Shown here one piece after another: positions 72 to 63,387 of a stretch of DNA of 64,000 bases. The stretch covers positions 2,310,315 through 2,374,314 of the forward strand of contig RPFO01000080.1 in NCBI GenBank assembly GCA_009746045.1, read 5' to 3'. Position numbers and translations under genes: made by a program. The notes beneath the pieces are model-generated. The model had not been told where the DNA came from. It saw only the letters and a list, made by a program, of their open reading frames with translations, and made no database searches. Origin of the DNA: Mesostigma viride. Its lineage: Eukaryota > Streptophyta > Mesostigmatophyceae > Mesostigmatales > Mesostigmataceae. Position 1 is the first letter of the stretch. Each line of letters opens with the position of its first letter.

Positions 72-263
72 GTGTCAGGCCTCAACATAAAAACGGACAC
101 CCCCGTCGGCCATGGCAATCTCATCTGTTTCTCGCTCTACTGCGGCGAGGACGTAAGCGAGGGCCCCAGCAGGCGGCGCGTGTGGGTGGACGTCACGGGA
201 GAAGAGAAGGGAGGCATTTTGGCTGCGTTCAAGGAGTTCTTTGAGGATGGCAGTATTAAAAAG
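72..263 (+). CDS. POP: POP exon 1 in window (start of 3'-5' exonuclease domain)
   Basis: 64 codons, phase 0 on both sides. It has the family pattern [12 protein letters not shown] followed by VWVDV and FFEDGSIKK. The acceptor CAG ends at 71: the frame upstream is closed by TGA at 66-68, so 72 is the natural start. The donor is AAG/GTAATA. Two decayed copies of this donor region follow at 336-365 and 430-462. Confidence 0.85.
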
Positions 264-3200: not shown

Positions 3201-6200
3201 TTTGTTATTTTTGTACTGTATTTAGCAATCATCTTTGTTATCTTTGTACTGTATTTAGCAATTGTCTTTGTTATCTTTGTAGTCTATTCGTGACATGTTT
3301 GCAGCAGCGCTCGTCGCAGGATGAAGAAGGACAGCACGACCGGTAGAAAATGACAGCTCTAGTGAAATTATTCACAACAATCGTAGAAACGCACTGATCA
3401 CTTTTTCTGGTTTCTGAATGTTGGTTGAATGGGCATGACATTCAGAGACGTGATGGCTGTAGTAAACCAAGGCTGGCAGCTAGTATTTCCAGAAGTTTAT
3501 GTGAACAAGCGACGGGAAAGCCTTTTATATATAGCATTTTGTATTCATCGTATGTTTTCTTTATCAAAACGAAGGACAAATAAAAATGGTCCAAACTGCA
3601 GGTCAAAACTATCATCTGAAATATCGGAGCACGGTATCTTCAAGAGAACCTGCAAGCGTTAGCATTTAGTGGCCTGCTGGCCTATTGGCCGATACTCTTG
3701 CAAGACACAAATATCTTCTGGCTTCTTCTTCGTCTCTTTCTTTAGGTCGACAGGCAGCCAGCCCCCCTCGCATAGCTGTCCTTCAGGTTGAAAGCGCTCC
3801 ATCCATGATTATACATTGCTACCCTTCTGTGACCATCAGCCCCAATGGAAGCCAACAGGGAAAAGACTGCATGCAGTTAATTTGTTGCGACGATTAATTA
3901 TTATTATGAGCAGGCTCGCCCGTCTTAACTCCTGTCTTTGTCGCTCCTTAACTCCTGTCTTTGGTTGCTCCCCTCTGTGTCAATACTTTCTCCTATTTTA
4001 GGTGTCTCATGTCTCAAGCGTGTCGGTCCCTATCCCCGACGCTACTTCCTCCTATTTGTGGTCTTATCATCCTATCTGTGCCGCTACTACCCCTATGTTT
4101 GTCTCATGTCTCAGGCGTGTCGGTCACCATCCCTGACATGCTGGTGCTCCAGCAAGGGGAGGACACGCGGGCTGAGTGGATCGACTATTCCACGCTGGAT
4201 GCCAAGGTACTATGAACGCATTAGCAGTACAGCCATATCCAATAGTACTGTACTAAGGATCGACTATTCCACGCTGGATGCCAAGGTAGCACAGGATGAT
4301 CTATTGCCATCACCAACAGATGTGTTGGTGGTGGGTGATAACGTGAATGGTGCTGTAGGCAAGTGCAACTAGAATACGTGCAACTAGCATGTTCTTTTCC
4401 TGAAAATGCTATACAGATTGAATTGTTTCGCCGAGAAGTTACTGCTGTGAACATTCTCTTGGAGGTACATTGCAACCTGCCCTGCATTCTGGTGTACCTG
4501 GCCCGGCTTCCGCGTCCCTGCTTGCTTGTTTCACCGTTTTAATTATAATATTGAAAGGCTTTTTGTGCCTTTATTATCACAAATGCCGCTCTTATCCTAT
4601 GGGATGCCACACATGCTGCTGTGCTTCTGGCACCTTCGGCATTCCACCCGCCGTCCGACTATGTCCTTTTCTCGAGTTCTTTGTGCTGGAAATGGATGCC
4701 AAACGGTTTCGTGTGCCAGTGCACCTGGTACCTGTACCGGTCGCTGGAGTCGAGGCTGAAGGAGGTGACAGGTGTCAGCTGCTACGGCTACCCACACGTG
4801 AAGACGATGATGGACTACTACGAGGAGGCAAGTGCAGCATATAAGTAGGGTGTGGTATACCCCAAGGTTTGGATTGTCTGGATTCTGTAGTTTGACGTGA
4901 AGGGTGACGACGGACCATTACGAGGAGGTAAGTTTGTTAAGGCTGTGTCATGTCTGCACCGTTCTATACTCTGTGATACTCTTTACTGATCAATCCAGGA
5001 TTAATCAGTAAAGTGTTTTGACATGCCTTGCTGTGTACGCAGCACTTGCTATGTATGTGGATTTCATTGTTGTAATGCTGATTATGTGAGTCATGAGTGC
5101 AGCATGTTACATGAGTACGTCATGAATCATGTTACGGCTGCCATGCACTTTGTTGTTCAGTGCAAGCCTCCATGGGGAGCAACATTATCGCAAGCCAACC
5201 CCCTTTCAGGGTCCCAAAACCACCTGGCAGGGTGCCAAAATAATAATATTTACCCCCTGAAAAGGCTTTCCCACTATCTGAGGGAGACCCAGCCAAACCC
5301 CCGGCTCAGGCCCTGAGAAACCACACCCCGCCCTGGTTATTAGCCAGGGGGTGGGGATATTTTCTCACCAGCAGTAAATAGGGGTTGCCTTGCGAAGCCG
5401 TAGAGTTCACCAAATTACATGTGACTTGATACCTTATCTGCCATATGTTTAGTGAATCACTAAGTTGTATGTCTAGTGAATCAGTTAATTGTATGCTTAG
5501 TGAATCCATGCTTTGGTATCAGGGCTGGCTTCGTGCCAGTGCTTGGAGCCCTCCCTTTCCTTTTCTGCTATTGAAGTTCACGTTTTCACTGCATTTGCCT
5601 CTTTCCTTGGCCCTGTGGTTTATTTGCACCCAGTTCTGGCGCCCGTTCGGCGAGATCCTCGTGGATATGGAACAGGCTGGGTTCCACGTGGACAGGGACC
5701 ACCTGAGGGAGATCGAGCAGGTGGGTGGGCCAAAGATTGCGAAAAATGACCCATCCAACCTTTTTTGCATCACGCCTGGCGTTGCTGTGGCCTGGAGTTG
5801 GCACGCTTGAGATAACCACTTTAAACACTGGTATTAAAGCGCTCTTCTTAGATGACAGGTAAGTTATGGAAGCGCCATATCCCTAGCAACATTATCGTTA
5901 TAGTAGAACTGCCCTACTGTCACCTGATCGATCCCATCGAACGTCATCTCACCCTTCTACTGCAGTAGCCCGCTCCTCTTCCATCATGTTTTGGTGGTGG
6001 CAGAAAGCGAAAGCGGAAGGCGAGCAGTTGAGCGCGCTCGTGCGGGACTGGGCGGCCAGCCGTTGCCCGGACGCCAGGTTTATGAACGTGAACAGTGAGC
6101 AGCAGATCCGACAGCTCCTCTTTGGCGGCTTCCCCAACAAGAACAACAGCAAGTCGAAGTCGGACAAGGACAAGCTGTACCTGCCGTTTGAGAGGGTGTT

Positions 6201-9200
6201 CAAGGTAAATAAGTTAACTTTAGCCCTGTGTTGTGCCATGAACGTTATTGGGAGGGTGTTCAAGGTCTTTGTTTTTAGCTTGATTTGGGGGGTCTTATAT
6301 ATTGAATTACTACTGTCTTGTTACATTTTGTTCTATATCAATTGACTGTGGTTAAAGAGCGTGATTGGAAGGGTGTCCAGGTTGGTCTTAAGCTAAAGGT
6401 TGTTCAATGTGAGCAAGTGTAGCTGGATAAAGGGGCCATTTCCTAGAGCTGTGGTTAAAGAGCGTGGTTGGGAGTGTGTCCAGCGTTATCACGTGCAGCC
6501 AAGTAATGCAGGCCCATCTGTCTGACTGTACCTAAACCGCATTATCTTAGATGGTTGTTTTAGTGCTTTGAGTGCTCAAAGGCGGCTAGCGTCAGTTGCG
6601 TAGGCATGCCCACTGTGTGTGACAACAGAGGGTCTAGCTTCGGTCCACTTGCTGTTTTCTGCCAATCAGAGTTCTTGCTCTTTCTGGATCGGAATCCATT
6701 TCGATAACGGCAACCGGGCACTTGTCACCACTAGCTCTTTTGCCTCATCTGCATCTGAACCGGCCCACCCACGTTTCGCTCTCTTCCGTCTTTGCCTGTG
6801 CAGGATTGCCCCATCTGCGTTTGCATCTTCTCCTATACCAGAATATAGTATATACTATAAACTTTTGTATTTCACATTATAGAAGTAGTTTTTTTAGTAG
6901 GTTTTCTTGGGGGGAGGGAGGCATTTGTGCGTTTGCCCTGTCCTTCCTTGGCAATCTCCCTCCTTGATTTGAACCCCTTCTTGCTTGTTGAACCCCCTTC
7001 ATCCTCCTCGGGTCAGATCCCTAACACGGACGGGTTTGTCGAGCCCGGACGCGAGGGCAAGGCCCCCCGCAAGTTCCGCAACATCACCCTCCACAACATA
7101 CTTGCGCCCCTGTGGGACGAGAACGCGCCGAGTGGGGCCACAGCAAATGCGAGCGGCGTCCATGGGGTCGTGTCGGACAACTCGCCATCCTCCAACGGGG
7201 CATCCACCACTGGGGCCTCTGGCGCTGGCACCAGTCTAGGGGGGGGCGTCGCTGGAAGTGATGGTGCCAGGGGGGGGGAAAGTAACGGGACAGTGGCCGG
7301 GGCAGTGGGGGTGGAAGCCGCGGGTGTGTTTGGGTCGGCGCTAGCCACCCCGTTGATGGCGGGAATAGGGGACTTGGACGATTTCGACGATGGGGCGGTA
7401 TTCAGGGCGGACAGTGAAGGGGATGATGAGGCCGAGAGTGATGCTGGCACCGCCTCCAAGAAACGAGGGGGAGCGAAGGCCGCGAAAGACAAGTCGGAGA
7501 AGGATGAGGACACCGTGGAGGCCAAGGCAGGGGGGGATAAAGACGGGGACCGGAGGGTCGGGATTGGCCCTGGGAAGCTCCCTGCCGATGAGCTGCCATC
7601 GACCACTGCAGGGTGGCCAGGATGCTCGGGTGTGGTGTTGCGTGCGCTGGCGGGGAACGTGGATGCGGGGGACGTTCGGAAGCTGGGCCCCGCGTATCAG
7701 GCGTTTGGGGGCGGGGACGCGGGGGTGGCTGCGTGCCGTGCGCTGGCAGCGTTGTGGCGGATGAACAGCATTGACGCGCTGCTCAGCAACTTCATCCTGC
7801 CGCTGCAGGTAGGGGCGGCTTTGTGACGCATACGGCGTGCGCTGGTTTTGGTGGTCTAGTATTGACGCGCTGCTCAGCAACTGCATCCTGCCGTTGCGGG
7901 TAAGTGACAGAATGAGATAAGTTACGCATGTTAGCGTAAAATAAAAGTAAGTATCAGATTTGTGAGATAAACAGATTTGTGAAGGATTCCCTGTGAGATA
8001 AAGCACGTGCCCTGGCATGAAACCGAAAGTCGCCATTTTATTTTCTGAATGCCAGTTAGCTATGTGTTGCATTGTCAAAATATGTAACTACCACGTCAGC
8101 TTGGTACGCGCCGTTTCAGCCGTGAGCTTGCGAAGCGGATGCGTGTAGCATAAGTCTGATGGTATGTGTAAGAGCGCTCACTGGTCTACGGATAACCAGT
8201 CCGCGATGGGCTGGTCTGCAGTTGGCTGGTCGGATTGCCTTCCCCCTTCTTCCCCTCGGCACGCTTGCTCGCCTCCCATCCACCTCCCCGCCTGTTGGAA
8301 TGTTCATGTTCTCGCCACTCACCTGGCGCTGATCATTGTTGTGGATACACCGGCCACCCTACCCACCTGCCACTGATCGCCGTGAAATAATTCTGGCGCG
8401 CCTGCCATCGATCACCGTGAAATGATTCTGGCGGACTTACCAGGGATCTGCGATCTCAGGGTTGCAAGGCCGCATCCACTGCTCGCTAAATTTGAACACA
8501 GAGACCGGGCGACTCTCCGCGAGACGGCCAAACCTGCAGGTATGCCCCAAATCAGTTATAATCAACTCTCAGTTCAGTAATTAACTCTCTCTTTCCCTAC
8601 AGGAGGGGCGAATGTGTAGGTGCATAGTTGGTCAGTCATCCTCCTTCTCTTCACATGCCGGGCAAATCACCCCTTGTCTTCGCATGCCGGGTGTATTTGC
8701 CCCGCCACCTCGTTGGAGCCTTCCGTTCCTTTTGGGGTTGCAGCATCCGGGGGATAGTGAACATCAGATTGCATCATATCAAGGAGCTCATTAGGGAATG
8801 TACTGCCGCATGTATTGCCCCCTTCTCCCTTTAACCAACTAGCTGGGGGTCAGTACAGGTCAGCAGTATTTCGTCCAGCTCCATAGAATCGTCTTGATGG
8901 ACCGCTCCATGTTCGCGATGGTGTAGTGGTTACTGCGTCGACCTATCACAAAATGTGGCCCCAGTGCGGAATCATATCAAGATTACATAAATTTTTGCTC
9001 TCGTGCGCTGCCCGGGTTGTTTTGCATACTGCCACTCGTCTTCGTTTGCCTAGAACAAGCGTTTGTCAAATGGAACTAGCCGAGGCCTGGTATGCCTATG
9101 ACGATGCGGGTTATATTCTTGCTTTGATGCAGAACCAACCTGCACTTATAACATGGAGCCTAAGGTATGGATGCTATTCGTGGTTCTCTGAACATAGTTT

Positions 9201-11145: not shown

Positions 11146-14100
11146 GTCATTATCATGATTATTATCATTATTATTATTGGGGTTGCCCCGTGCCCTCTGT
11201 TCGCCTTGTAGGGGCCCATGCCCTCCAGAGGCTGTCTCTCGGCAAGTGATTTCTCCCGGCCATGATCGTGACTTTGTCACATGCTGTCATGTACTGAGAT
11301 TCCAGTGCGTGTGCGTCCCCCCTTGCCCCCTGAGCATTCATGCTGCCAACCTACAGTTGGAGATGCGCATTCTCGCGCAAGTGACCGGTTAACGGTTGTA
11401 TCATCCATTAACGTGTCCTGCTATAGGGTCTTATCATCCAGTACACGGTTATATCATTCATAGACGCCTGTGTGTGGATATATATAATCCAGTACTACTA
11501 TATGGTTGTATCATTCATAGACGCATCCATATCATGTATCTAAACTGTACCTCTCCTCCCCCCCTCCCTGCCTCAATTTTCTCTGGCTATGCACCGCAGC
11601 GGGAGCTGCGCGCTCTCTCACACAGGATACCCCTCCCCGCCCCCACCGCAAGTATGTCATGCCCCCTCCCCCCTTCCCCATCCGTGGGTGTGACGCAGTC
11701 ATGTGTTCTTTATTCATTGATCCGCTGGGACAGCGCATCATCGCGCTGTCTTCGTGTAGATGAATTAATCCTGGCGCACATGATTCGCCAATACTATGAC
11801 AAGACTGTCTATGTCTCGATGTGTCTGAAATTTCAATAAGACACTTACAACAACGAAAAAATATACTCCTCTCCCCCCTCCACACACACACATGCATCAC
11901 CACCAAACATCCCTCGTCTATGCCCAACCGCTGGAGCTGTGCGTCCTCGCACACATGACGGGTTGATATTACAATACTGTGTATTTAGCAATGTATTTAG
12001 CTATGTATTTATCAATGTATTTGCCAATGTATTTAGCAATGTATTTAGCAATGTATTTAGCAATGCGTCTGAATTATACGCCCCCCATCCACACAACCAA
12101 ATACTCCTCTCTATGCGACAGCTGGAGCTGCGCATCCTCGCGCACATGACGGGTTGTGAGAGCATGACGCAGGCATTCCTTGAGGGCGGCGACTTCCACT
12201 CGCGCACGGCCATGGGTATGTACCCCCACGTGCGAGAGGCCGTCGAGCGGGGCGATGTGCTGCTCGAGTGGGATGAGAAGGATGGTCCCCCGCCCAAGCC
12301 GTTGCTCAAGGTAGGAGCCCCGCACAGTTTGTAGTGCAGGGAATTCGGGTAAGGTGCACATTCTGCACTAAAAGGAGACTGTACCAAAGGAGTACTAAAG
12401 GAGACTGCACCAAAGGAGTACTGAAGGAGACTGTACCAAAGGAGTACTGAAGGAGACTGTACCGAAGGAGTACTAAAAGAGACTGAATATAGGAGTAATA
12501 AAGGAGACTGTAATAAAGGAGTGCTAGAGGAGATAAACGATGGGTCGCTGCCCAAGCCATTGCCCACGCTACAGTGCATGTAGTACACAACAGACAAATG
12601 ATTGCCCCCCGTCCATGCCTTTTTTTCTGTATGGTACGTCACATGTTGCGGATCATGTGTGCATCCGACGCACTGAGCCCACGATGATGTGGCATCATGT
12701 GGATGTTCGGGCTTAAGTAGTGGGCTAACCTACTGGGTTCCTAGCGTGTTCATGTTCGATCTTATGATCCCTTAGTTACGATTCTCTTGTCTTATGATCG
12801 CTTAATTGAGCGTGTTCATGTTCGATCTTATGATCCCTTAGTTACGATTCTCTTTTCTTATGATCGCTTAATTGAGCGTGTTCATGTTCGATCTTATGAT
12901 CCCTTAGTTACGATTCTCTTTTCTTATGATCGCTTAATTGAGCGTGTTCATGTTCGATCTTATGATCCCTTAGTTACGATTCTCTTGTCTTATGATCGCT
13001 TAATTGTTGTTTTCCTGTTTTGTAATTCACGTGTTTGGTTCTGACATGACATGACCACCTACCCAGTGCCCACACGATGGCGTGTCATCACAGCTGCCTG
13101 TGATCTATGTTGTGTTACAGAACGTGTTTGCGCCCAACGCTCTGCGCCTAACAATTGAGGTCTTACACTACACGATCTCTTTCCTATTCCCACAATGTCC
13201 ACCATGTCACTGCGGCAGAGCATGTTGCGTCGGAAGTACCGTGCCCACCACTGCTACTGCACAGTACTGCTAGTTCCAGTACCGCTAGTTAGTACTGCTG
13301 GTAGGGTGCTGCATGTTTGCATGCCTGTCCATTTCCTTGTTCAAGAACGGTTTTACATCGGATGTGCTGCGCCCACAGTGACAATGTTTCCGCGCCTTCT
13401 TTTGTTGCTGCACCACGTTATTTCCCTTTGTTTCAGAACATGCTTGCGTCCGATGTGCCGTGCCCACAATGACATGCCTGCGCGCCTTGTTCCACACTCC
13501 TTTGCCGCAGAACGTGTTTGCGTCGGAGCGCCGCAAGGCCAAAACCCTCAACTTCTCGATCGCATACGGCAAGACCGCGCAGGGGCTGGCCAAGGACTGG
13601 AAGGTGGGGGTTCAAGTTAATCGATTACTACCGTTGTAACTTGGGATCAATAGGTCGGTGGTAGAATACTAATGAAAATCGACTAGAGCGTTATATCAAG
13701 AAGAATACTACTGAAAATCGACTAGAACATGCTATCAAGAAGGATACTAACGAAAATCAAATAGAACATTATATCAAGAAGAATACTAATGAAAATCGAC
13801 TAGAACATTATATCAAGAAGAATACTAATGAAAATCGACTTGCAGGTGGGGTCCTGGGCTTGGAGCGTTTACTGCTAGTGGCATATAAACCCGATAGAGC
13901 AATAACAAGACCGAGGACTGGAAGGTGCGTAGTTACTCACATGGCTGAAATGTGGGAAGGAAGTAAAGGAACGGATGCTGGGGGCCTGGGCTTGTACCTT
14001 ATATCAATGGTGTGTCCGTTTTTAATGGAAACGTGTGCCGTTTAGAATACTAGCAGCAGCTAAGCTCGCATTGATTACCTTAACAGTTTGATATATAGAT

Positions 14101-43773: not shown

Positions 43774-43814
43774 ACCTGTCATCATCCGGCCCTTGGTCAG
43801 CCCGGCCATGCATG

Positions 43815-49948: not shown

Positions 49949-50194
49949 CTAAGCCCAAAGTCCTAAATGCTGAGCCCTACACCTAAACTTCACACACGCA
50001 CCGGCGATGGGCACCCGCACGCTGCCGTCCTTCACCCCCGTGAGGATGCGATGGAGTTCAGGGCTGTTGGCGAAGCGCAGCGCCTCCCGCGCCCGCAACA
50101 CAGGCAGGGAGCTGCTGGCCGCTGCCAAGTTGAGTGAGGGGATGCCACCCCCATTGCGGGGGGTGGTCAGTATGCTCGCGCTATTTACTTGCGC
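49949..50194 (-). CDS. Coiled-coil gene, exon i (possible last exon)
   Basis: AQVNSASILTTPRNGGGIPS, LRAREALRFANSPELHRIL and VKDGSVRVPIAG. Read on, the frame stops at 49949. Alternatively a GTGCGT donor ends the exon at 50002 and a further exon would be needed; none was seen. Confidence 0.5.
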   Translation of the reverse strand, partial: AQVNSASILTTPRNGGGIPSLNLAAASSSLPVLRAREALRFANSPELHRILTGVKDGSVRVPIAGACVKFRCRAQHLGLWA

Positions 50195-53100
50195 CTGCAG
50201 TAGGCGAAGAGCAGGGGCGAAAAGCAGGCTGGGGAGAGCCATTTAGTTCGGCGTTTCACCATTCCATTCAGCGTAGACAGTCGACACATGAAGGTTGCCA
50301 GGGGTAGCTGGTGGTGGGCATGGGTCATAAAAAAGGCGGATGCAGCGGCATTTATGGATGTTCATGGAGAAAACTGGCAGTGCTGTAGCTGTAGAAAAGA
50401 ACTTGAAGGTCTATTTTCAGCGATCCCCCTTGTGTTTTAAGGGAAATATAGTGAAGGTAAATTGGACGCTCCGTTCCCATCTTGACTACATATTTAGCCC
50501 ACTCAATCCCCACTTCTTCTGCAGCCTCCACCACATTACATCTAGCCCCGTTCGCGTCCCCAGTGAAACCTCTACCACTACTCATGTCCCCATGACCAAC
50601 ACCACCCCCACTCATGTCCCTGGTAAACGTGCAGATATGTCGTACTTTAGCCCACAGAGACATCGTTGACATGCGTACACGTTTATGGGAATACCCCCCT
50701 AACAGCCTCAATACTTAGGTCCCCGCCGGCCACCAGCTCTTCCAGCATCCCGTTGGCCACCAAACTTCATTAGATACAAACAACTACTAGATTATGAATA
50801 CCCCCATAGTACACTCTTTTACTCACAGCCAAGTTGGCCACCAGCTCTTCCAGCATCTTGCTGACGACCGATGTTTGTTTGGTACAAACAACTATAAGTA
50901 TTTGAATAACCCCATCACAAATTCCTTTACTCACAGTCCCGTCGGCCACCAGCTCCGCCAGCATCTCGCTGGCGACCGCGTTGCTGTCGCGCGCCTGGCG
51001 CAAAACCGCCGCCACATCCAGCTGGCTCGCCAGTAACGGCGTGCCCACCGCCGCCTGTGCAAATGTGGGTGGGTTGTATACATCGTTCGTTTGTTCGTGC
51101 GAACATGGGTGAGGGATGGATTAGGCAGAGATTAGGCAGAGGTCAGGCAGAGATTAGCCAGAGATTAGGCAGAGGCCAGGCAGAGATTAGCCAGAGATTA
51201 GGCAGAGATTAGGCAGAGATTAGGCAGAGATTAGGTACAGAGTAGAAAGAGGCAAAGTGCATTGGAATAAACAGCTCGATGGAAAGTGATGGATTGCAGA
51301 ACCACTGAGTAAGCAACGCTCATTGGTATACCACCTGCATCGAGCATAGCATCACTAGTTAGCAGCAACGTTGTTGCAAATGATGGTGATTTTGAAAACG
51401 TCCGATGCAAAGATGAATTAATCAGACAGCGCACCCCCCTTACAACCCCGCTCACCTGGACGATATGCACGACACACGCGCCTTACACCAATTGCGGACC
51501 CACACTACAGAAACACCCACACTGACGTTGCTGGGTACTGTAGACGACACTCATGGAATGCGCGGCTCACCAGTACACGAAAAGTAGCCATTCCTCCCCT
51601 GACCCCATCCCCCCCAAAGTCCACACAGCTTAACTTACATTAATCGAAACACACAGGGCTCACCTGGGTGCTGGAGATAACACGAAGAGTTCACCACCAC
51701 CAGACAAACGGTAAAGATATCTAGATTTGGAAAATCAAGAATAGAAGCCCTCTTAAGGATTCTTGCGATGAGAAAAGGGGACCAGCAGCAGCACTATATA
51801 TGCTAACAATATACATTCTTGCGATGAGAAACGGGGACCAGCAGCAGCACTATATATGCTAACAATATACATTCTTGTGATGAGAAAAGGGGACCAGCAG
51901 CAGCAGCCCTATGTATGCTAACAATATATGCTAACAATATACATTCTTGTGATGAGAAAAGGGGACCAGCAGCAGCAGCACTATATATGCTAACAATACA
52001 TGCTAACAATATACATTCTTGTGATGAAATAAGGGGACCAGCAGCAGCAGCCCTATGTATGCTAACAATATATGCTAACAATATACATTCTTGTGATGAG
52101 ACAAGGGGACCAGCAGCAGACGCACTATTTAATATACTAGTATACTAACAAGTAGTGTACTAACAATAGTACTAGTCTATACTAACAATACTTATAGTTC
52201 TAGACAACTAAACTATGGAAGAAACCCAGACCTCACCTTGACAGTCCTGAAGGCAACACAGCACACCGCCACGACACAATGGCCCCCTTTCGCCCGATAC
52301 AGAACAAGAACCATGGGCCCATCTGTAACAGAACGATTGGCCTATCTGTAACAGGGCCATTTGCCCATCTGTAACAGAACGATTGGCCTATCTGTAACAG
52401 GGCCATTTGCCCATCTGTAACAGAACGATTGGCCCATCTGTAACAGAACGATTGGCCCATCTGTAACAGGGCCATTTGCCCATCTGTAACAGAACGATTG
52501 GCCTATCTGTAATTGAACCATTAGCCAATCTTCAATAGCCCCTCACCTTTACAATTCTGACGGGACTACGAGACCACTACCACCACACAGACGGTAGCAA
52601 AGGTTTTCATCGAAAATACAACTAAGACCAGCCGTCACATTGAGAATGCCTTTATGACGCGCAAGAGGGCTTACCTTAACAATGCTTGAGACGAAACAAA
52701 AGAGCTCACCATCCCATCAGGCAAAACAAAGCCAGCGCTTACCTTGACGATGCTGGAGACGACCACCTCCACGTCCTGCGTGACCACCAGGGAGGCCCTG
52801 TCCCCACACAAGTCCACAAACCGTGACCACCGGTCAAGACTGCTCATGATCATCGGCAACGTGCCAGGGCGTTGCACCACTGCGCCCGGCGCCCCCGCCG
52901 CCGCATTTCCCCCCCCTTTCCCGTCCTGCAAAGACCCCCCTCCTCCCCCTGGTGCTGGGGGCCCCTTCTTTCCCCACGCAGACACCCAACCTGGGGCGGC
53001 CCCTTCCAGCTCCTCGGCCGCGGCGGCAAGAAGTTCCGGGTGATGCTCCGCAATCGAAGAGAGCGCGACAAAGGGCGCCCAGGCCGGCACGAGGAGGCGC

Positions 53101-56100
53101 ACCAGCTGGCAGGCCAGGAGCGACTGGATCTCCTCAGGGTCGAGCACATCGACGGCCGAGGACTGGAGGACGAGAGCAGGGTCCCCGGACTGCAGCAACC
53201 ACACGTAGGCGCGGGGAAGGAGGCCGTCGGAGATATAGAGGGGTGGCGCGCGGGCCATCTGGGGTGCCACATGAAGAAGTTTGGAGTGGGCGCGCCAACA
53301 GGATAGCGAAATCAAGTAGATGAGATTAGTACAGTCGCGAAATCAGGTAGAGAACAGAGCAGTCGCGAAATCAGGTAGAGAACAGAGCAGTCGCGAAATC
53401 AGGTAGAGAACAGAACAGTCGCGAAATCAGGTAGATGAGAGTACAGTAGCGAAATCAGGTAGATGAGATTAGTACAGGGGCAGTGCACTGTCACCACGCG
53501 TTGGGGGGCAGTTCGTGGGAAGGCACCCACCTTTCCGAGCATGTTGTCGGGAGGGGTGGCAGGGGGGAAGGCGGGGTGGGAAAAAAGGGAGTGAAGGGGG
53601 GTGGTGAAGGCGGGATGGCATAGGGCGGAAATGGAGGCGTTGGTCTGACTGCATCTTTTAAACTAGTACCATAGCATCCGCAGGTGAAAGCAAAGCACGC
53701 AAACTAAAGAGTCACACAGAAGAAAAGAGAAACTCCACGCCCGTATTTGGCACACCTGTGCATAAGGTAAGAGATGAAGGTAAAGCTGCATAGGGTAAAA
53801 GCATAGCCACAGCATCTGGCACGCTCAGTACAGCAGGCTCTACACTATGAAGATGCACATCTCCACAAAAAAACGAATATAACAATCACAAATATGTTAA
53901 CATACCCCCAGCATATCATGATCGACCAGTTTACTATGACAAGACATCATAATCCACATTAGCAAGACAGCATCTGCCCCTTCCTAATAGCACACACCAC
54001 GATAAATAAAAAGGCTCAACCCTCAGCATCTAGCACGCAAGCATAAGACAAAGGCTTACCCCCAGCATTTCCTCCAATCCCCCCACTCCCCCCCCCCACA
54101 GGTTGGGATATTTCAGCAACCCCACCACCACTTCTTTTCTGGTGAATGGGGGGGGTGCTCTACATGCTGCATTGTTCTCTTTTTCGGTTCCGCCTACCCA
54201 TTCATTCAGGATGGCTCAGTCTACTCATTGTTTCAATAAAGACTGGTGATTCGTGGGAGTGAATGGGTGTAAAAATCTTACCCCCAGCATCTGGCACGCC
54301 TGCACCATGATCGCGTGCAGCTGCGGCAACTGATGGGGACCCACAGGGACACCCAGGTCGACACCTGTCATGTCCGCCAGCCCCCCCTCCCTCCTCATCC
54401 ACGCCAACAACGCCACCATGCCACTCTCCTTTTCCAGCTGCTCGGTTTTCCCCGCGACCACCGGGTGCGTGAGCAGCGCCGCCAGGGTCCCTGAGACGCC
54501 TGTCTGGTCGTCCCGATCGGGCATCGGCGGCGGCAGCACGCGCGTGTGAGGGTTCCCGTCGACGCCTCGTTTGGGCCGGAAGAAGGTGACTTGGGCCAGC
54601 GGTTGGGAGAGCATCTCGTGCGTCGCACCGAGGAGATGCGACGACCGGACGACACCTGGCACCATGGGGTTGCCCGCCCCTTGTCGCGGTGGGTCATTGG
54701 TGTCCTGGTTGTTGTTGTCGTTGTGATTATTCTTGTTGGCACGGGCGCTCCGGAGCAGCCACCCGGCTTGCACGGCGTCCACGTGTTGGAACATGTTCTC
54801 GGTCGCCGCGCCGGATTCGTCGGGTTCGAGCGACTCGCCAGTGAAGGGGGGGGAGTGGATGGTTGCCAGCCTGGTGGGGTGGTAGTGGTGGTGATGGCCG
54901 ATCAGGGGGGCGCGTGACAGAAGTATTGGACGGGGTCAGAGCATGTGGGGAACATGAGGGGCGGCAGCGGATGGTCGCTAGGCACTTATGGGATAGGGAG
55001 GACACATGCTGTGGGTGTGTGGGTGTGTGGGTGGTGGGCGTGTGGGTGTGGTGGGTGTGTGGGTGTGTGGGTGTGTGGGTGTGTGGGTGTGTGGGTGTGT
55101 GGGTGTGTGGGTGTGTGGGTGTGTGGGTGTGTGGGTGTGTGGGTGTGTGGGTGTGTGGGTGTGTGGGTGTGTGGGTGTGTGGGTGTGTGGGTGCGGGGGA
55201 TTGGGTGGGGTGGGGTGGGGTGGGATGTGTGTGTGTGCGTGTGTGTGTGTGGGGTGGGATCCAGTAGAAGAACTCGGAAGTGGGGATCAGGGTGTTTGTA
55301 GCGTCGCAAGGCGACTGCCGCTGTAAGTGGCTGTGTTTGGAATTGATAAGTGCGCACGATGAGAACTGCTAGGAATGCGGCAGAAGGATGGGGTGTGTTG
55401 GGAATGGTAGCTTAGCGTGCGGCAGCAGCATCGGTACAAGGGTATGCAGAACAGGAAGGAGAGCATGGCAAAGAAGGCATACCCGGCAGCCTGCGAAAGT
55501 ACCAGGGGATTAGCCACATGCAAGTGGGTATATGCACACGGGGCAGGGGGGCAAGCACATCAGGCTTGAGGGAATGCGCAACAGGCATGGGAAAAACTGC
55601 ACAAAAGGCTGTGAGCTATGCAAATCGTCCACCCGTTGCAAGCACATGTAGGAGGGCATGCATGACAAGTCCCGGGGTATGCACATCAGTAACCGGCGCC
55701 TCTAAGTGTATGTGTTCCAAGCCTATCTGTGGGCTCTGGACATGGGGCAGCCTTACTGCATCCGCTATGAGCCAGCCATGCTATGAGTCAGCCATGCTTG
55801 TTTGCCAATGCAGAGAGCCACTCTCTGCCGAGACGCCATCATGCTCTAGCCATTGCCTAGCCATGATCATCTTCCACCCCATGTCCGCAACTTCGCACAG
55901 CTGCTGGAATACATGGTGGTGCAGGTGCATCTCAATTGTGCACCCCGAGTAGGTGGTAGTTTACACCAACCACCTGCAGGTTGTCGCCTAGAATGTATTG
56001 AAAACCATATGCCCCTTCTCAGGGATACGTGTTACATATCCTCCCCACAGAGGTATGTTCTTAATTAATTAATTAATTAATTGATGCACATCAGGCAGGG

Positions 56101-59100
56101 GGGTATTTGCACCACCAATAGTAGTAATACAAATTGTTACAAAGGGAGTACCCGGAAACAGCACGTATAGTTCGGTACGCGAAAACAGGCCGCATGCCCT
56201 GTACGCACAAGACATACCCCGTGGCAGCACATGCAGCATACACAAGAAAACGGAGGGCATGCACAGGACACAGCCTGCAGCAGCATAGGCAGGAGGGCAA
56301 GCAGCCCGGGCTGCAGGCTAAACACAACAGACGGTAGCATCAGCATATGGTTAAGGACAGGATGGACCGGGCAGCCACTATGCCAAGGCCTGGACTATAA
56401 GCACAATAGAGCGATGGGTATAGGTAACAGGCAGGAGGGCATATTCGCGACAGAGCGATGGGTATAGGTAGCAGGCAGGAGGGCATATTCGCGACAGAGC
56501 GATCGGAATAGGTATCCGGCAGGAGGGCATATTCGCGACAGAGCGATGGGTATAGGTAGCAGGCAGGAGGGCATATTCGCGACAGAGCGATCGGAATAGG
56601 TGTCCGGCAGGAGGGCATATTCATGGCAGACCAAGGGGTAAAATTTGATCATGTTGTACACAAAAGCATACCCGGCAGCAACTGTATCTGTGGGCCCGTT
56701 GTCCTCCCCCCACAGGCCGGTGTCGTCGCTCAGGCCGCACGACTGGGCGAAGATGCGAACCTCCGGGTTGCTCTGGTGGGCGGACAGGCTGGACACAAAC
56801 TGGACCATGCTGGCGTCCGCCACCTCGTCCGTGCCGTACCTGGAGTTGCCAGGAGGTGGATGTGGATGAATGTGCATGAGTGGGGAGGTTGCCAGGTGGC
56901 GGGGGGAGGGACAACTAATACTACCTCAATTGTCGTTATTTTAATGCTAGTGTAGTATAATACCATCCGCGGGAGTTGTTGGAATAAGGGAACCGAAAGC
57001 TTCGCTGAAAGCCGTTTTTCTGAATACAATCCGGCCTAATGCGCCACTCCTGACCCCCACACGCAAGCCGAGGCCGGCCCCTGGTTACAGAGAAGGCGAC
57101 GTCATGGTGCGAGGACCAAATTCCAGGACTTGAGACAGAAAATAGGAATGACTACGACGGCGGCGAGGTTGAGCCCACTGAAGCAGCCGACGATGGTCAT
57201 TGCTACTGCACTTGGTGCCCCAACATGAATAGGTGCCAGAAGTTCACGTATCGGAGAGAATTGCATTACCACCAGAGGGCCATAAGAAAGAGGGAGCAAC
57301 GGTTTAGTAAATTTCGAATCATATAATGTTTGCAAACGAAATAAATAAGTAATTTCAGAAAACACTTGACCGCAGCTCCCTCTTTCTCTTGGACGTCGGT
57401 GGTGACGCAAACTTCTCAGGTACATGAAATTTGGCGCAGACGCGTGTTGGGGCCACATACGCAGTACCAATAAACGTCGGTGGCTGTTTCAGTGGGCTCC
57501 ACCTTGCCATCGTCATCGCCCTGGCCTGCTTGTCCTTCTTCCCAGCTGGAGACAGGGCTGTCTCGTCCGATGCAGGAGAATCAGATGCTTCCCCCCACCC
57601 CCCCACCCACCCCACCCCCACCCACCCCCACCCCCACCCCCACCCCCACCCCCACCCACCCCCACCCCCACCCCACCCCCACCCCCCCACCCCACCCCAC
57701 CCCCACCCCCACCCCCACCCCCACCCCACCTCATCGTTCCAAATGTCCACCTTAGGCCCTGGGCACGTCGCCTGGCACAATGACGTTGCCTTCTCTGTAA
57801 CTTTGGGCCAGTCTTGGCTTGCACGTGGGGAGAAAAGGTATCGCATCAGGCCCGATGATCTATTTGCTACTAGTATATTTTTTATAGGCTTAATCTTGTT
57901 ATTGTTGCGGCAAGAGGGGCGATGGGACTAGATGTATAGCTCCTATACGCCGTGTGTACCTGGAGTCTAACAGGTGGCGAGGGAGCGACGGAGCTTGGTA
58001 TTAGGCTGCTCGTGGCAAGAGGGGCAACCAAATTAAGTTAAGTTTAGAATACTCCGTGCCGTATGCGGGCATTGCCACGGGACGAGTGTGGATGAATGGG
58101 AATACAGCGGGTTGATGTGGATGAATATGGTCAAGTGTGGCCACGAGGCAAGGGGAGCAGTTCGAATATGGTCAAGTGTGGCCACGAGGCAAGGGGAGCA
58201 GTTCGAATATGGTCAAGTGTGGCCACGAGGTAAGGGGAGCAGTTCGAATATGGTCAAGTGTGGCCACGAGGTAAGGGGAGCAGTTCGAATATGGTCAAGT
58301 GTGGCCACGAGGCAAGGGGAGCAGTTCGAATATGGTCAAGTGTGGCCACGAGGTAAGGGGAGCAGTTCGAATATGGTCAAGTGTGGCCACGAGGCAAGGG
58401 GAGCAGTTCGAATATGGTCAAGTGTGGCCACGAGGTAAGGGGAGCAGTTCTGTTAGAGATTTTGTGGCTAGGCAAGCAACAGAGTTGTATGTATCCCACA
58501 AAGGGCATGCCCATGTATACCCTACTCCATGCCGTGCCTGGGTTCATGTGGATAGGTGCGATTTTGAGTATTTTATTTTAAAATTTATTACTCCCACTTT
58601 TTTAACTAACAAAGTAATTAGTCTTACTCCTATTTCTTTATAGAGAACTTGTTAGATTATCTCACAAACCACAACAAGCTTAATTTAATGCCTCTATACT
58701 TTTTAAACCTTGTTATTCTGTTTAATAAATTATTTTCAGAGAAATCCGATTATTATATAGATTTAACTCACTTTAAAACTTTTAATTATTAAATTGTTAT
58801 TCGTAACAAAAATAAGATGAAGATTAGAAAAATGTTCTAAATATTGTTCTAAAAACAGAAATAATTACAACTTCATTTCTGGTAAGTTTGATTATGATAA
58901 AAAATATGCTTATAATTGGTCGTCAGATTATTACTATGGGATTTGGTCTTTACCTATAGATTTTACGGAGTTTAATAAGAACTATTTCATAGTACCCATG
59001 TTTAAATTTTTTTGCGAAGAAATATATCTGTTTGACGATTTTTTTGTTAATTTTTATCTAAACATCCGTATAGTAACTCATGTTGGACCTTTTATTGCTT

Positions 59101-62100
59101 GCAGAAGTGAAGTATATTTTTATGAGATCAAGGTCTCAAAAGACGAGTTATTTATAAAAAAGAAACAGTATATGTGCAGATTTTATTGATAATATTTTGA
59201 AGGTATCCACTAAAAAAATTCAAACTTAGTAGCTTCTGCAGTTACCTTATAATTATAGGCTGTAGACAAAACTAATAATATTGTACTTTAATAAAAAAAT
59301 ACTAAATAAATGAAGAGTGATATGACAAAAATCGCTAATTCTAATGGGTCAGAGGAAATGGTAGTTAAAAACAAAATGGGAAAAAAAAGAAATAAGCTAT
59401 GCTGAAATAGTTGGAATGGAAAATTTGCCGATGTTGCCACGTAAAGACAGAAATGTTCATCATCATCCTCAAGTTGTTATCACGATTATGATACTACCAT
59501 CATTCTTGTTATCACTCTTGTTCTCAGGACTCTTGCCAAAGGAGCGTTTGTAACAAGTAACAAACTGCGCTTGCAAGGAGCGATTCTATCAAACTGTAGC
59601 GGGTCTGCGGAATTAACAAGCCGCGTTTTGTGGCAAGGGGACTTGATTATTCTATCAGGTGTCACAACTCCGTGGCAAGTAGCGAGCGCTATGGTTGCCA
59701 CCTGGCTGATGGCAACAGCAAGTTGAGATGCACGTGAGAGATATTTCCCTAAGAAACTGGGCTACAGCTATCTGTGCTATTTATCCATAGAATAGTGTTA
59801 TTAAAGCAAACGGGGCCTGGCGCTTTAGCACCGATGAAGCAGTGTGCACAAAGGGGTGTGGTACCCGCACGTGGCCATTCCTAAACTATCCCATTTGTCC
59901 AGTTGCTATCGCAATGGTCTATCACAAGTACTGTAGATAATAAATTTGCAGCGATATGGCTGGCTATAAACAGCAATATATGAAGGATGCTACTCTCACA
60001 CATCGATTATGTTTCCTTGCTCATACCTCTGCAAGAAGTAGCGCTTGATACACATGGGCAACGGCACGGCTGGCTGGCCCTGCCTCATGCAGTAGACATC
60101 GTTCTTGACCTTCATTGCGTAGATGTCGGTCACTATACGCATTGTGTTCTTTAGAGAGAGCAGCAGGTTGGCCTGGGGTGGGACAGGCGGGTCATTGTAC
60201 CGTGAGTGTTGGACAAGACGGGGTATTGTAAGCATAGTGAACAATGATAGTCAGCATTTGCCAGCAGCAAAGTAGGCGTCATACAGACAAGCCCTGTCAG
60301 TAAGTTTACCTTGGGGTTGCCACATGTGCACCTGGGGCAAAACCAGGCCAGGCCACGGCTTCAGAAATAAGATCAGGTTAGGGCTTCAACGGGTCATTAT
60401 TGTTACAGCAGCAAAGCAGATATGATATAGCAGAAACAGGAAAAGCACCGGGCAAAGCAGCGGCAACAACAGCAGGTTCGCCATGAAATAGCAGACATGA
60501 AATGGCAGAAACTAATACCATCAGTACTACTATCATCCCCACCCACTAGCCAGCTTGTCATTATGTTCCAGCCTCATTTGAGTGGCCACACTTGAAGGAC
60601 CACACCCAAGCGCCATTTACATGACCACACCCCAGCGCCATTCATTGGGCTGTATACCCCTCTTCTGGCCTCCTCACTATGCTCTAGCGGCACAGCGCGC
60701 TGCTGATGGTATATATGGCCACGTAGTCATCGCGTGGCCTCCTTGCAATGGTCCACCCACATAGCTTGTAATTATTACTTATTGTTTACACGACCATGTA
60801 CCCGTTTCGTGGCCTCCAGATTCAGCGTCGGCACCCCCACGCTCGTCCCCCCTGCTTGCCCCCGCTTGCCCGCCACGGCTGCGGGCCCTCCCGCGGCAGC
60901 GATCGCCACCGGTGCGCCCCCCCCCACGAGCACGCCGTACGTGAAGAACTTGTTGTCCGTCTGGACACCCTGGTTGATGAAACGGCGCTCGGCCTTGAGC
61001 GTGGTCAGTTGTTGTTCCGCCGCCCTGAGCTTGCGCCCGGTCTGCTCCATGAATTTCTCCTGCGGGAGGCAGCATAAGGCCAACGATACATAGATCCAGT
61101 AACATTTGGACAGTGAGGTAAGAACGAAGGGCGTGATAGGTCTGCCTTATCGAGAGAGTGGGGTGGAAAAGGGGAAGGATAGTTTGCAAAGTGGTCGAAA
61201 CGAGTTCCTCTAGCACGCAATGCCTGCAGCGTAGACCATCAGCCTGCGTGAGGGACACCACTGTGCTTCATCATGGCTTACAGCGGCTCACTCTTGAGCC
61301 TCACCTGCAGCTTGAAATAGGCATAGCGCCCTCCTTTATACTGCTGCTCCTACACCTGCTCCTACACCTGCTGCTTGGAGTGGAACGCCACCGGTGCCCT
61401 GCGCTCCGCCAAAAAGGACAAATACCACAATCTCCTTCACAACACGGTGCCCTTCACAACTCGGCGCCCTTCCCAAGACGATGGCCTTCAGACAAGAACG
61501 CCTTTCACACCACAATGCGCCTTACAGCCACCCACCTGCGGCTTACTTTGACTTGGATGCCATAGATGGAGGCAAGCTGTAAGTGTGTTATAAGCATACC
61601 ATGGTCCTTCTTATTACTGTTTCTCCCTCCCACCTGCAGCCAGGACTCAACAAAGTGGATCACCTGCCGACCGGACTATCACGTGGAGGGATGCCGACGA
61701 CCCTTTCCCCGTTGCCTCAACTGCAGCTTGGATTGCTACCTAGCAATGAAGTGACATACATGCCTGTGTGGAGTGCGAGGCCACCTGCGCCCTGCCTTTC
61801 ATTTCAAGGAACAATCACTATGGGGCCATGAACGGAGTAAGCCGCATACCTGCAGCTTGGAGTGCGAGGCAACCTTAGCCCTGCGCTCCGCCATCTCCTT
61901 CTTTAGACCCTCGATGTCCTCCCTCAGCTGCGCGATGGTCGCCCGAGCGCCCTCTAGGTCGGCGGCCACGCTCTGGTTCTGCGCGGTCAGCAGGTCGCGC
62001 TCCTCACGCGCCTCGCGCAGCCGCTGGGGGGATAAGAAAGTGATCAATAATTAACAAAAAAGACCACAGGGCTTATTAAATAACAGAAGGGTCGCGCTCC

Positions 62101-63387
62101 TCTCTCGCCTCGCGCAGCCGCTGGAGGAAGAGAAAGTGAGCAATCATGGTCGGAGGAAAGCAATCAGTCACAGATATAGACAACCAGCGTTCCTTTGATT
62201 TCAAGAGGGTCTTGCTTGTCGCGCGCCTCGCGTAGTCACTGGCGGGACATTAAAGTAACCAATAATAAATACAGACGAGAAATGTGAAAAAAGAGTGCAT
62301 GAAATAGCATTTGGTATGATAGATATGCCTACCGCAGCCGCTGGGGGAGCATAAAGTGAGCGCTCATGACTATAAACAGCAAAATATTTGTTCGAAAAAG
62401 CTCGTGATCCTCAGTGCGCCTTCCAACCGCTGCTCAAAGGACCAACATAATGCTTATAAATAAGCAACAAATCACAAAAGGATTTGGTCTGAGAAGAACG
62501 CGTCCCGCAACCGCTGGGGGGACTTAAACGCTGGTAAAGGACAAAAAAAAGTACTTTGTCGGAGAAAGATGCCTCGCGCAGCAGCTGGCCACTGGGGAAA
62601 TTAGATAACACCCGATTTGACCCGAGAGAGGTTGATGAGAAAGGGGAGGGGGAAATGGACATCATGAGCATACTGTTTGATATGCGTAATCAAGTTCACA
62701 TGTGTTCAATCGTAGGGGAAGGGGGGAAGGCAGGTGGGTGGAAAAGGGGAGGGGAGAAGGGATGTAACTCAGTGGGCATGTGCCCGCGCTCTGGGAAGGG
62801 GGAAGGAAGACAAGGGGAAAGAGGAAAGAGAGGGAGAAGAAAAACCCACATGGCCCAGCAGAGCAAACTTGCACTGGGCAGTCGGCACTATGCGCCCACG
62901 TATATCATATATTGTTATGCTAGTATATACTTTATTCACTGTACTGGATTCGAATCCAACTGCTAGCCCTATTGGTCATGCTAGTACATACATCATGCAC
63001 TGTACTACATGTCGCTGCCACTCGTGTGGTTTAGCAGTGCAGATAAGCGCTGGCAGTCGACACTGTCTGGCTGCACATATTCACTACATATGCTAGTACA
63101 TACTTAACGCTACCCTAGCGACCTTGCGCTGGCAGTCGTCATCCTCCGCCCCCATGTAGTACACCCTATTGATGCTAGTACATAAGTAGCAGAATATAAT
63201 GTGTATTCCGGCCACCCACATGGTTGAGCAGAGCGATCTTGCGCTGGCAGTCGGCGTTCTCTCCGCGCACCGCCTCGATGTCCGCGTGCAGGCGGCGCGA
63301 TAGCTCCACCTGCTGCTGCAGGCGCTTGGCGAGCTCTAACTGCGCGCTCGAAGGGGTGGGGCCGTCCCGCTGCTTACGCAGATCCGC
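49949..63387 (-). CDS. Unrecognised coiled-coil protein, last nine exons
   Basis: Exons in coding order: complement(63220..63387), (61850..62033 region, start 62023), (60802..61059), (60027..60172), (56672..56839), (54282..54870), (52743..53258), (50935..51054) and (49949..50194). Phases agree at every junction, including 2-to-1 at 60027/56839 and 56672/54870, which strongly supports one gene. The order is coiled coil (first three exons), then a compact motif split by an intron (NTMRIVTDIYAMKVKNDVYC, IKRYFLQR/YGTDEVADAS, NPEVRIFAQSCGL), then Pro/Asn-rich linkers and helical segments. The motif reminds me of one in large flagellate coiled-coil or EF-hand proteins, which with CFAP57 nearby would suit a ciliary role; this is weak inference. 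The N-terminus lies beyond the window. Confidence 0.7.
50712..50868 (-). repeat. Two echoes of exon h donor
   Basis: GCCACCAGCTCTTCCAGCAT at about 50731 and 50838 copies the true GCCACCAGCTCCGCCAGCAT. The shared downstream intron (ACAAACAACTA, GAATA-CCCC) shows that the unit spanned the junction. Confidence 0.9.
50935..51054 (-). CDS. Coiled-coil gene, exon h
   Basis: 40 codons, phase 0: AAVGTPLLASQLDVAAVLRQ, ARDSNAVASEMLAELVADGT. Acceptor GCACAG, donor ACT/GTGAGT. Two echoes of its donor follow. Confidence 0.72.
51112..51240. repeat. AGAGATTAGGC-type short tandem
   Basis: About ten irregular units of 11-12 bp in the intron between exons g and h. Confidence 0.93.
51455..52700 (-). repeat. 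Five echoes of exon g donor plus tandem arrays
   Basis: Copies of ACCTTGACGATGCTGGAGAC at about 51460, 51662, 52233, 52547 and 52673. Between them lie a 55-72-bp array (51775-52105) and a 23-bp array (ATCTGTAACAGAACGATTGG, 52318-52515). Confidence 0.85.
52743..53258 (-). CDS. Coiled-coil gene, exon g
   Basis: 172 codons, phase 0: MARAPPLYISDGLLPRAYVW, VDVLDPEEIQSLLACQLVRL, a Gly-rich linker and VTQDVEVVVSSIVK. Acceptor CCCCAG, donor AAG/GTAAGC. Confidence 0.75.
53305..53470. repeat. 28-bp tandem repeat, about 6 copies
   Basis: Units of GTCGCGAAATCAGGTAGAGA plus ACAGAGCA. Confidence 0.95.
53800..54075 (-). repeat. Echoes of exon f donor
   Basis: ACAGCATCTGGCACGCTC (53808), ACCCCCAGCATATC (53905), a short one near 53965, CCTCAGCATCTAGCACGC (54021) and CTTACCCCCAGCATTTCC (54056), versus the true CTTACCCCCAGCATCTGGCA (54278). 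Confidence 0.85.
54282..54870 (-). CDS. Coiled-coil gene, exon f
   Basis: 196 codons after a 1-nt phase completion: LATIHSPPFTGESLEPDESG, MFQHVDAVQAGWLLRSARAN, an Asn/Asp-rich linker, GTLAALLTHPVVAGKTEQLE and LPQLHAIMVQACQMLG. The acceptor CACCAG is chosen because only it restores the phase with exon e. Confidence 0.72.
55010..55195. repeat. (GTGTGTGG)n array
   Basis: About 22 units of 8 bp, followed by GGGGT and GT runs to 55255. Open in three frames on both strands only by repetition. Confidence 0.97.
56018..56085 (+). mobile_element. LINE 3' tail remnant
   Basis: TACATATCCTCCCCACAGAG followed by GTATGTTC and (TTAA)n resembles the end of the LINE at 47190-47225 (TACATGACCTCCCCACGGAG, GCATGTT, TTTAA). 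Confidence 0.65.
56411..56628. repeat. 44-bp tandem repeat, 5 copies
   Basis: Units of GCGATGGGTATAGGTAGCAG plus GCAGGAGGGCATATTCGCGACAGA. The GGCATA and GTATAGG parts resemble the exon e donor region. Confidence 0.93.
56672..56839 (-). CDS. Coiled-coil gene, exon e (second half of motif)
   Basis: Joins exon d as FLQR/YGTDEVADASMVQFV, continuing SSLSAHQSNPEVRIFAQSCG and LSDDTGLWGEDNGPTDTVAA. Acceptor CTCCAG, donor GG/GTATGC. Confidence 0.75.
57588..57735. repeat. (CCCCCA)n / CCCCA array
   Basis: C-rich array in the intron between exons d and e. Proline-, threonine- and histidine-rich frames here are artefacts. Confidence 0.97.
58117..58450 (+). repeat. 41-bp tandem repeat, 8 copies
   Basis: Units of GAATATGGTCAAGTGTGGCC plus ACGAGGYAAGGGGAGCAGTTC. 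Units differ mainly at one C/T position, giving either GAG/GCAAGG or GAG/GTAAGG. Confidence 0.95.
58556..59340 (+). other. AT-rich island with a foreign-looking 123-codon frame
   Basis: About 785 bases with a sharp drop in GC against all neighbours. An open frame at 58821-59189 reads FDYDKKYAYNWSSDYYYGIW, SLPIDFTEFNKNYF, then MFKFFCEEIYLFDDFFVNFY and ends KKKQYMCRFY. It is rich in Phe, Tyr, Lys and Asn with AT-ending codons. I recognise no family. It could be organelle-derived, viral or bacterial DNA caught in an intron. Confidence 0.55.
60027..60172 (-). CDS. Coiled-coil gene, exon d (first half of conserved-looking motif)
   Basis: 48 codons plus 2 nt: ANLLLSLKNTMRIVTDIYAM and PLPMCIKRYFLQ. 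Acceptor CCCCAG, donor CAGAG/GTATGA. Confidence 0.75.
60802..61059 (-). CDS. Coiled-coil gene, exon c
   Basis: 86 codons, phase 0: EKFMEQTGRKLRAAEQQLTT, RRFINQGVQTDNKFFTYGV, then a Gly/Ala-rich stretch. Acceptor CCCGCAG, donor CGG/GTACAT. Confidence 0.75.
61850..62023 (-). CDS. Coiled-coil gene, exon b
   Basis: 58 codons, phase 0: RLREAREERDLLTAQNQSVA through KKEMAERRAKVASHSKLQ, a clean heptad coil. Acceptor CCCCCAG, donor CAG/GTATGC. Up to six acceptor echoes lie upstream. Confidence 0.78.
62091..62600 (-). repeat. Six echoes of exon b acceptor edge
   Basis: CCTCGCGCAGCCGCTGGAGG (62109), CCTCGCGTAGTCACTGGCGG (62227), CGCAGCCGCTGGGGGAGC (62333), CCAACCGCTG (62425), CGCAACCGCTGGGGGG (62505) and CCTCGCGCAGCAGCTGGCCA (62572), versus the true CCTCGCGCAGCCGCTGGGGG (62011). 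Several also share the following intron words AAAGTGAGC or AAAGTGATC. Confidence 0.9.
62850..63150 (-). repeat. Three echoes of exon a donor edge
   Basis: CACATGGCCCAGCAGAGCAA plus ACTTGCACTGGGCAGTCGGC (62849), GTTTAGCAGTGCAGATAAGC (63026) and CCTTGCGCTGGCAGTCGTCA (63121), compared with the true CACATGGTTGAGCAGAGCGA plus TCTTGCGCTGGCAGTCGGC (63217). Confidence 0.88.
63220..63387 (-). CDS. Coiled-coil gene, exon a
   Basis: 56 codons, phase 0: ADLRKQRDGPTPSSAQLELA, KRLQQQVELSRRLHADIEAV and RGENADCQRKIALLNH. Acceptor GAACAG, donor CAT/GTGGGT. Confidence 0.75.

Follow-up and report, generated by a model that had tools for sequence, protein, structure and literature searches.

Decaying copies of exon edges in the introns of Mesostigma viride and their probable origin by tandem duplication across splice junctions

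A 64,000-nucleotide stretch of the genome of the streptophyte Mesostigma viride (bases 2310315-2374314 of contig RPFO01000080.1, within the 440-Mb assembly GCA_009746045.1 of 2243 contigs; hereafter, the window) contains introns that carry diverged copies of the adjoining exon edge. This exon-edge copying is confirmed as a real feature that recurs across the sampled loci of the genome, and its likely origin is the recurrent tandem duplication of segments spanning a splice site, in which the outer copy would remain exon and the inner copies would decay. In the window and 27 ten-kb stretches of the same assembly (28 stretches in total), the last or first 50 bp of predicted exons were compared with the adjoining intron, using non-adjacent edges as controls. 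Copies were found in the downstream intron of 33 out of 160 donors versus 0 of 800 controls, and in the upstream intron of 16 out of 158 acceptors versus 1 of 790 controls, an excess over non-adjacent exon edges that agrees with the original prediction made from the letters of the window. Edge copies occur in 17 of the 28 stretches.

Exons were modelled with a custom hidden-Markov gene finder, trained on the WD40-containing frames of the genome plus one long exon of the window, whose first pass predicted too many exons on either strand, after which it was made stricter. Exons shorter than 60 bp or below the score cut (15 in the first test, 12 from the 280-junction test on) were dropped before counting, as well as junctions with fewer than 150 unmasked flank bases or a mostly masked edge, and the retroelement region at 30000-48500. 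False exons in the gene models would dilute the edge-copy rates. Runs of N are present in three of the 27 sampled stretches (L009, L011 and L031).

Four comparisons, the last of them included in the totals above, led to similar results. In the first test, 60 bp of exon edge were set against up to 1 kb of adjoining intron, and z values above 4 against the edges of other genes were obtained at 18 of 45 window junctions and 19 of 194 other junctions; the next 60 bp inward of the exon reached this level in only 4 of 209 cases. A second test covered 280 junctions with as much as 150 bp of exon and a score of at least 19; it gave 54 direct copies versus 2.4 expected from non-adjacent edges and 5 inverted ones, as would follow from the local direct duplication across splice junctions, with decay of the inner copy, that had been proposed. 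At the lenient score of 16, the same junctions yielded 92 copies versus 20 in the controls, so about one fifth of the copies at this score may be due to chance. In a third test (score 17), donor edges matched their own downstream intron in 24 of 104 cases but the intron preceding that exon in none of 104, and acceptor edges matched the adjoining intron in 10 of 104 and the opposite one in 0 of 104, which bears out the rule that donor echoes lie downstream and acceptor echoes upstream. Slices taken 50-200 bp inside the exon matched in 3 of 225 cases on the donor side and in 0 of 218 on the acceptor side, compared with 28 of 140 donor and 14 of 140 acceptor edge slices. Finally, five new stretches examined with thresholds frozen beforehand gave 5 of 20 donors versus 0 of 100 controls, and 3 of 18 acceptors versus 1 of 90 controls. 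The window is richer in copied junctions (15 of 47) than the remaining stretches (34 of 271), among which L029, the 10 kb directly adjoining the window, has 7 of 15 junctions copied, and L031, an AAA-family stretch, 4 of 6.

Copies with splice sites were originally described in three genes on both strands, and this holds: they are present in a family-A (DNA polymerase I-like) DNA polymerase gene on the + strand, which extends from 72 to about 16580 according to the gene finder, in a CFAP57-like cilium gene on the - strand (at least 23631-29196, perhaps down to 18416), and in at least one further gene among the - strand exons at 50002-63387, which may belong to one or more genes. The four joined polymerase exons aligned with Taq polymerase, with two of the three splices inside an aligned block, DWK/VST and INTPIQ/GSAADI (the latter against MPVQ/GTAAD; slashes mark the splice), and the first splice falling between blocks. 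In the case of the CFAP57-like gene, solved CFAP57 chains aligned across both splices of three joined exons, with several axonemal chains matching about equally (best four 2.3e-79 to 3.3e-76). A few junctions thus do not depend on the gene finder only, since homology runs through two polymerase and two CFAP57-like splices. The tightened gene model begins one polymerase exon late, at 16393 instead of 16303.

The main exons and copies in the window are the following:

72-263, + strand: predicted exon of the DNA polymerase I-like gene (hidden-Markov gene finder), with its donor edge copied downstream.
305-474, + strand: two decayed copies of that donor edge, at 305-381 (71% of 77) and 411-474 (74% of 66), with a period of about 94-98 bp.
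828-859, + strand: acceptor-edge copy upstream of exon 895-1042 (88% of 32, AG lost).
4895-4933, + strand: donor copy of exon 4720-4827 (79% of 39).
6248-6266, + strand: donor copy of exon 6004-6204 (95% of 19), considered weak because of its shortness.
7812-7902, + strand: copy of the last ~87 bp of exon 7017-7808 (76% overall; best part 7858-7902, 91% of 45).
11353-11390, 11575-11627, 11707-11746 and 11898-11965, + strand: four acceptor-edge copies of exon 12122-12310, the second and third weak (scores 19 and 16).
12522-12571, + strand: donor-edge copy of exon 12122-12310 (74% of 53).
14610-14638 (83% of 29), 14797-14842 (89% of 46) and 14948-14992 (69% of 45), + strand: three donor copies of exon 14340-14579.
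23413-23553, - strand: two donor copies of CFAP57-like exon 23631-24143 (85% of 41, 77% of 48; period about 93-104).
25388-25430, - strand: donor copy of CFAP57-like exon 25564-25734 (79% of 43).
26272-26485, - strand: three donor copies of exon 26519-29196, the youngest array (91-95%).
50690-50870, - strand: two donor copies of exon 50935-51054 (80% and 74%; period 109 bp).
52666-52694, - strand: weaker donor copy of exon 52743-53258 (86% of 29).
61755-61795 (80% of 41) and 61366-61411 (83% of 46), - strand: donor copies of exon 61850-62023.
62084-62588, - strand: five acceptor copies of exon 61850-62023, from 85% of 65 down to remnants of 18 and 24 bp; CCAG is kept in all five, and the last two are weak.
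62844-63149, - strand: three donor copies of exon 63220-63387 (78% of 58, 73% of 62, 86% of 35).

Some of these junctions are informative in themselves. The copy of exon 7017-7808 begins 3 bp into the intron, so that the modelled donor is a duplication seam, as the intron opens with a copy of the last 87 bp of the exon. The first residues of exon 12122-12310, LELRILAH, correspond in the alignment to IELRVLAH of polymerase I, and the true junction of exon 14340-14579, INTPIQ/GSAADI, is backed by homology, the following exon beginning at 16303. At 4827, the modelled donor is a GC site (GAG/GCAAGT), and the decayed copy downstream has GAG/GTAAGT. As to the totals, the lenient score of 16 gives 45 copies at 20 of the 45 window junctions (copies were taken only where the first test had reached a z of 3.5 or more), and the strict score of 19 gives 22 copies at 14 junctions. 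The 60-70 copies first counted by eye are therefore more than the statistics support; the number of window junctions with a copy, 15 of 47 in the 50-bp test, likewise falls short of the original wording.

Many of the window alignments span the splice site. In the youngest array, the 79-bp unit consists of 46 bp of exon and 33 bp of intron, and Tandem Repeats Finder reports a regular array of 79 bp x 3.6 at 26277-26564, along with another clear head-to-tail array at 50727-50978; most window junctions with copies are missing from its list. The exon part of a copy has a median of 46 bp for donors (n=32) and 32 bp for acceptors (n=11). The nearest copy lies at a median lag of 135 bp over 55 junctions, and at 27 of them it lies 39-127 bp away, often near 100. 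Donor copies average 0.80 identity. Identities of the best copies range from 65 to 100% across 47 junctions, and this spread looks like the outcome of an ongoing process rather than of a single burst.

These data would be accounted for if the non-coding DNA of this genome undergoes recurrent tandem duplication of short segments, through either slippage or end joining. When such a segment spans a donor, the series of exon tail, donor and intron start would be present twice; with the first donor still in use, the protein would remain unchanged, the second copy would become intron and decay, and the intron would gain one unit. A segment spanning an acceptor would produce the mirror image, and in both cases the outermost splice site would be the one used. 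Selection would hold the exon copy, so that old events could still be read at the edge after duplicates internal to the intron have faded. The position of the copies, their orientation, their adjacency to the edge, their decay without coding constraint and their recurrence in many loci are directly observed, as is a co-duplicated intron part at a minority of junctions; the mutational mechanism and the splicing of the outermost site are inferred.

A different possibility is that the copies derive from a mobile family of the introner type, from chance similarity or from assembly errors. In favour of this, the genome is rich in repeats, and a dispersed 40-bp repeat flanks one of the copy regions. 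However, comparison of 47 copy regions from different junctions revealed no mutual similarity at an E of 0.001, the array at 264-560 matches only itself in the assembly (the sole array with an assembly-wide search result), control rates are near zero, and most copies are well diverged (65-100% identity), unlike duplicated reads. Junction-private sequences and an array occurring once make local tandem duplication, and not a mobile element, the best fit; the mobile-element reading was rejected on these grounds, in agreement with the contrast to introner elements drawn at the outset, and the three possibilities together are judged extremely improbable.

Regarding what was duplicated, a local alignment test found the intron part co-duplicated (p<0.05) in 12 of 54 copies versus 2.7 expected, at 11 of 41 junctions (Fisher combined p=0.0011). 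This test replaced an earlier global one, in which 8 of 30 copies exceeded the 95th percentile of the controls, because indels broke the global alignment. Read by eye, copies in L010, L018 and L029 also have intron words in common, with indels. Both lines of evidence weaken the notion that copies were templated from RNA or from the exon only and end at the splice junction, which several alignments stopping at donor +1 to +3, and an intron part that is not significant at 30 of 41 junctions, would favour; the sense orientation of the copies also speaks against such exon-only templating, which is judged very unlikely.

Several observations weigh against recurrent tandem duplication across the junction as well. 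The 30 junctions just mentioned, together with a median p of 0.38 over the 54 copies, are among them, and only 3 of 26 intron stretches adjoining a copied edge were found again. In simulations, detection of a two-sided decayed segment falls from 96% (t=0.1) through 65% (t=0.15) to 17% (t=0.2), so that the lack of a clear intron part in young copies is mildly anomalous. The nearest copy lies 135-1049 bp away at 28 of 55 junctions, and there is no single clean short period; intermediates may have decayed at these places, or larger units may have been duplicated. Exon-internal anchors repeat in 6.2% of 256 cases, about as frequently as masked intron interiors at an equal score (5.5% of 798), although these repeats come from a small number of repetitive predicted exons. 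Moreover, the second training round of the gene finder used its own output, testing overlapped much of the training sequence, and all junctions other than the four crossed by homology are predictions of the gene finder.

The fate of the copies bears on whether they are used. Substitution rates in the exon copies are 0.146, 0.154 and 0.206 at codon positions 1, 2 and 3, a mild third-position excess, and 69 of 73 gap runs are not multiples of three (the alignment scoring itself favours short gaps), the pattern expected when a freely changing copy is compared with a constrained exon. The copies look like dead DNA and not like alternative exons. Alternative or mutually exclusive exons would be consistent with the GT intact in 22 of 40 donor copies, 10 of which are as strong as the modelled site or stronger, but the first and second codon positions are substituted nearly like the third, most gaps shift the frame, and the motif INTPIQ of the exon reads INARIH in the copy at 14797-14842 (translated by eye). 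With neither reading frame nor constraint kept, that reading was rejected, and it is given next to no credence. Of the 31 copies that abut the donor, 19 retain its GT, compared with the 20.8 that neutral decay predicts. As 10 of 40 donor copies match or exceed the modelled site, position and not strength would have to decide the choice of donor. In the case of acceptors, AG is kept in 6 of 16 copies versus 11.7 predicted at score 18 (p=0.0014) and in 5 of 11 versus 8.6 at score 20 (p=0.012), with no clear effect at score 22 (5 of 8 versus 6.2, p=0.24); this is a hint, suggestive only, of selection against upstream acceptor copies.

A further question is whether the junction itself is special. 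Anchors in intron interiors have copies in 65 of 638 cases with short-period arrays unmasked and, as given above, in 5.5% of 798 with arrays masked, mostly as strong hits (4.3% at score 25); masked rates at the same score are 19.4% of 134 for donor edges and 8.8% of 136 for acceptor edges. Since duplicates also occur inside introns, junction targeting is not demonstrated, and edge copies would be visible longer because the exon does not decay freely. The expected visibility advantage of edges is about 2-fold by simulation (0.53) and about 9-fold by the measured 3 of 26, and the observed ratio of 4.4-fold (25 of 134 donor edges versus 36 of 851 interior tiles, both at lags of at least 75 bp) falls between the two; the duplicated tiles come from 21 introns, and three of these introns contribute 5 apiece. 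A genuine hot spot of duplication at the splice junction, chiefly at the donor, for example through breaks linked to transcription or R-loops, so that introns grow from their 5' end, would fit a ratio of which simulation explains only about 2-fold, as well as the excess of donors over acceptors (p=0.012 for the 50-bp test). On the other side, a detection chance of 3 of 26 would reduce the 18.7% seen at edges to about 2% in the interior, less than the 4.2% observed, and matches scoring 25 or more show no clear excess at edges (7.5% of 134 donors and 1.5% of 136 acceptors, versus 4.3% of 798 interior anchors). A junction hot spot of roughly two-fold is not demonstrated, and a true hot spot is held to be rather improbable.

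Tandem duplication without such targeting would leave the donor excess most simply read as a matter of tolerance: a second donor downstream is ignored, and a second acceptor upstream perhaps is not. A first-donor-wins rule fits the larger number of donor copies, since an upstream duplicate acceptor might capture splicing. The original prediction went further in some respects. It saw a genome-wide habit, and the recurrence in many of the sampled stretches supports that part, but not a habit specific to junctions, given the duplicated interior tiles. It found no copy inside exons, which is not strictly so, as internal repeats occur at 16 of 286 anchors within exons (spread over 7 predicted exons, one of which accounts for 6). 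It also spoke of introns built from copies, a wording too strong for the 13.7 kb, or about 5%, of the 277 kb of tested flank that lie between a junction and its farthest copy, even if this is a floor, because the flanks hold some non-intron sequence and the look-back is short. The most far-reaching version would make junction-spanning duplication, biased to donors by first-donor-wins splicing or by a donor-side break hot spot, the main engine of intron lengthening in this lineage, with exon edges as a readable and datable record of growth and upstream acceptor copies silenced by selection; such a scenario is doubtful at present.

Other features were found in the window and stretches. The window yielded no tRNA and no match to an Rfam family at gathering score. 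An intron of the polymerase gene harbours a CTCC/CTTT-type polypyrimidine repeat of ~960 bp (1073-2035), and a minisatellite of a 19-bp unit x 18.5 lies at 24622-24972 in a CFAP57-like intron, near exon-edge copies. Reverse-transcriptase sequence occupies 30915-47061, between the CFAP57-like gene and the exons at 50002-63387; in its part at 32790-40337 there are a direct duplication (37909-38646 and 38633-39374, 99% identical, lag 724 bp), a tandem repeat of 170 bp x 2.5 at 32790-33214 and a similar protein reading on the opposite strand near 39825-40140. Finally, a 40-bp repeat of 92-100% identity appears in seven places of six stretches (L019, L014, L016, L021, L028 and L033); in L019 it flanks the junction copy by exon 4668-4973, and it may be a small dispersed element.

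Why introns become long is not well understood, since their sequence erodes quickly and with it the traces of where it came from. Coding selection on one of the duplication partners allows a longer look-back, which would turn the exon edge into a ruler of intron growth, with unit size, age, donor versus acceptor tolerance and the purging of duplicate splice sites measurable at each junction. The edge test requires only a genome and its annotation, and is applicable to any eukaryote.

With regard to known systems, intronic minisatellites also form tandem arrays, and the youngest case (79 bp x 3.6) is detected by Tandem Repeats Finder, but the arrays described here take in the exon edge and splice site, and most copies are too decayed for that program. 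Gao and Lynch (2009, as cited in PMC4974935) reportedly described internal gene duplication as a source of introns, with splice sites carried along; by comparison, the units found here would differ in being mostly short and in forming decaying series beside an unchanged exon. Introner elements share with the present copies the presence of repeated sequence in many introns, but, in the part of the account considered, introners are dispersed related copies (PMC9860276), whereas the sequence here is private to each junction. In Chlamydomonas and its relatives, long introns have been described and their cause left open, with no mechanism named in the portion of that study used here (PMC8226300); the gaps between neighbouring predicted exons of M. 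viride (up to 3 kb) are likewise long, with a median of 766 bp (n=123). In a literature search over titles and abstract openings, with most subscription papers outside its scope, exon-edge copies were not found described as a general intron feature or as a dense record of intron growth. The original statement that no description was known is nonetheless too strong, as tandem genomic duplication is a published route to new introns (PMC3443670, PMC4974935), in one case, the potato RdRp gene, with a duplication crossing the intron-exon boundary and one copy becoming intron (PMC4974935). Both phenomena involve a local tandem duplication of exon sequence with one copy turned intron; as far as the consulted parts of those papers go, the published examples are single cases that create a new intron, whereas here existing introns are apparently lengthened, at 33 of 160 donors and sometimes in several rounds. 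In the one genome sampled, this looks like an ordinary mutational mechanism acting at seemingly unusual density and made visible by the conserved exon.

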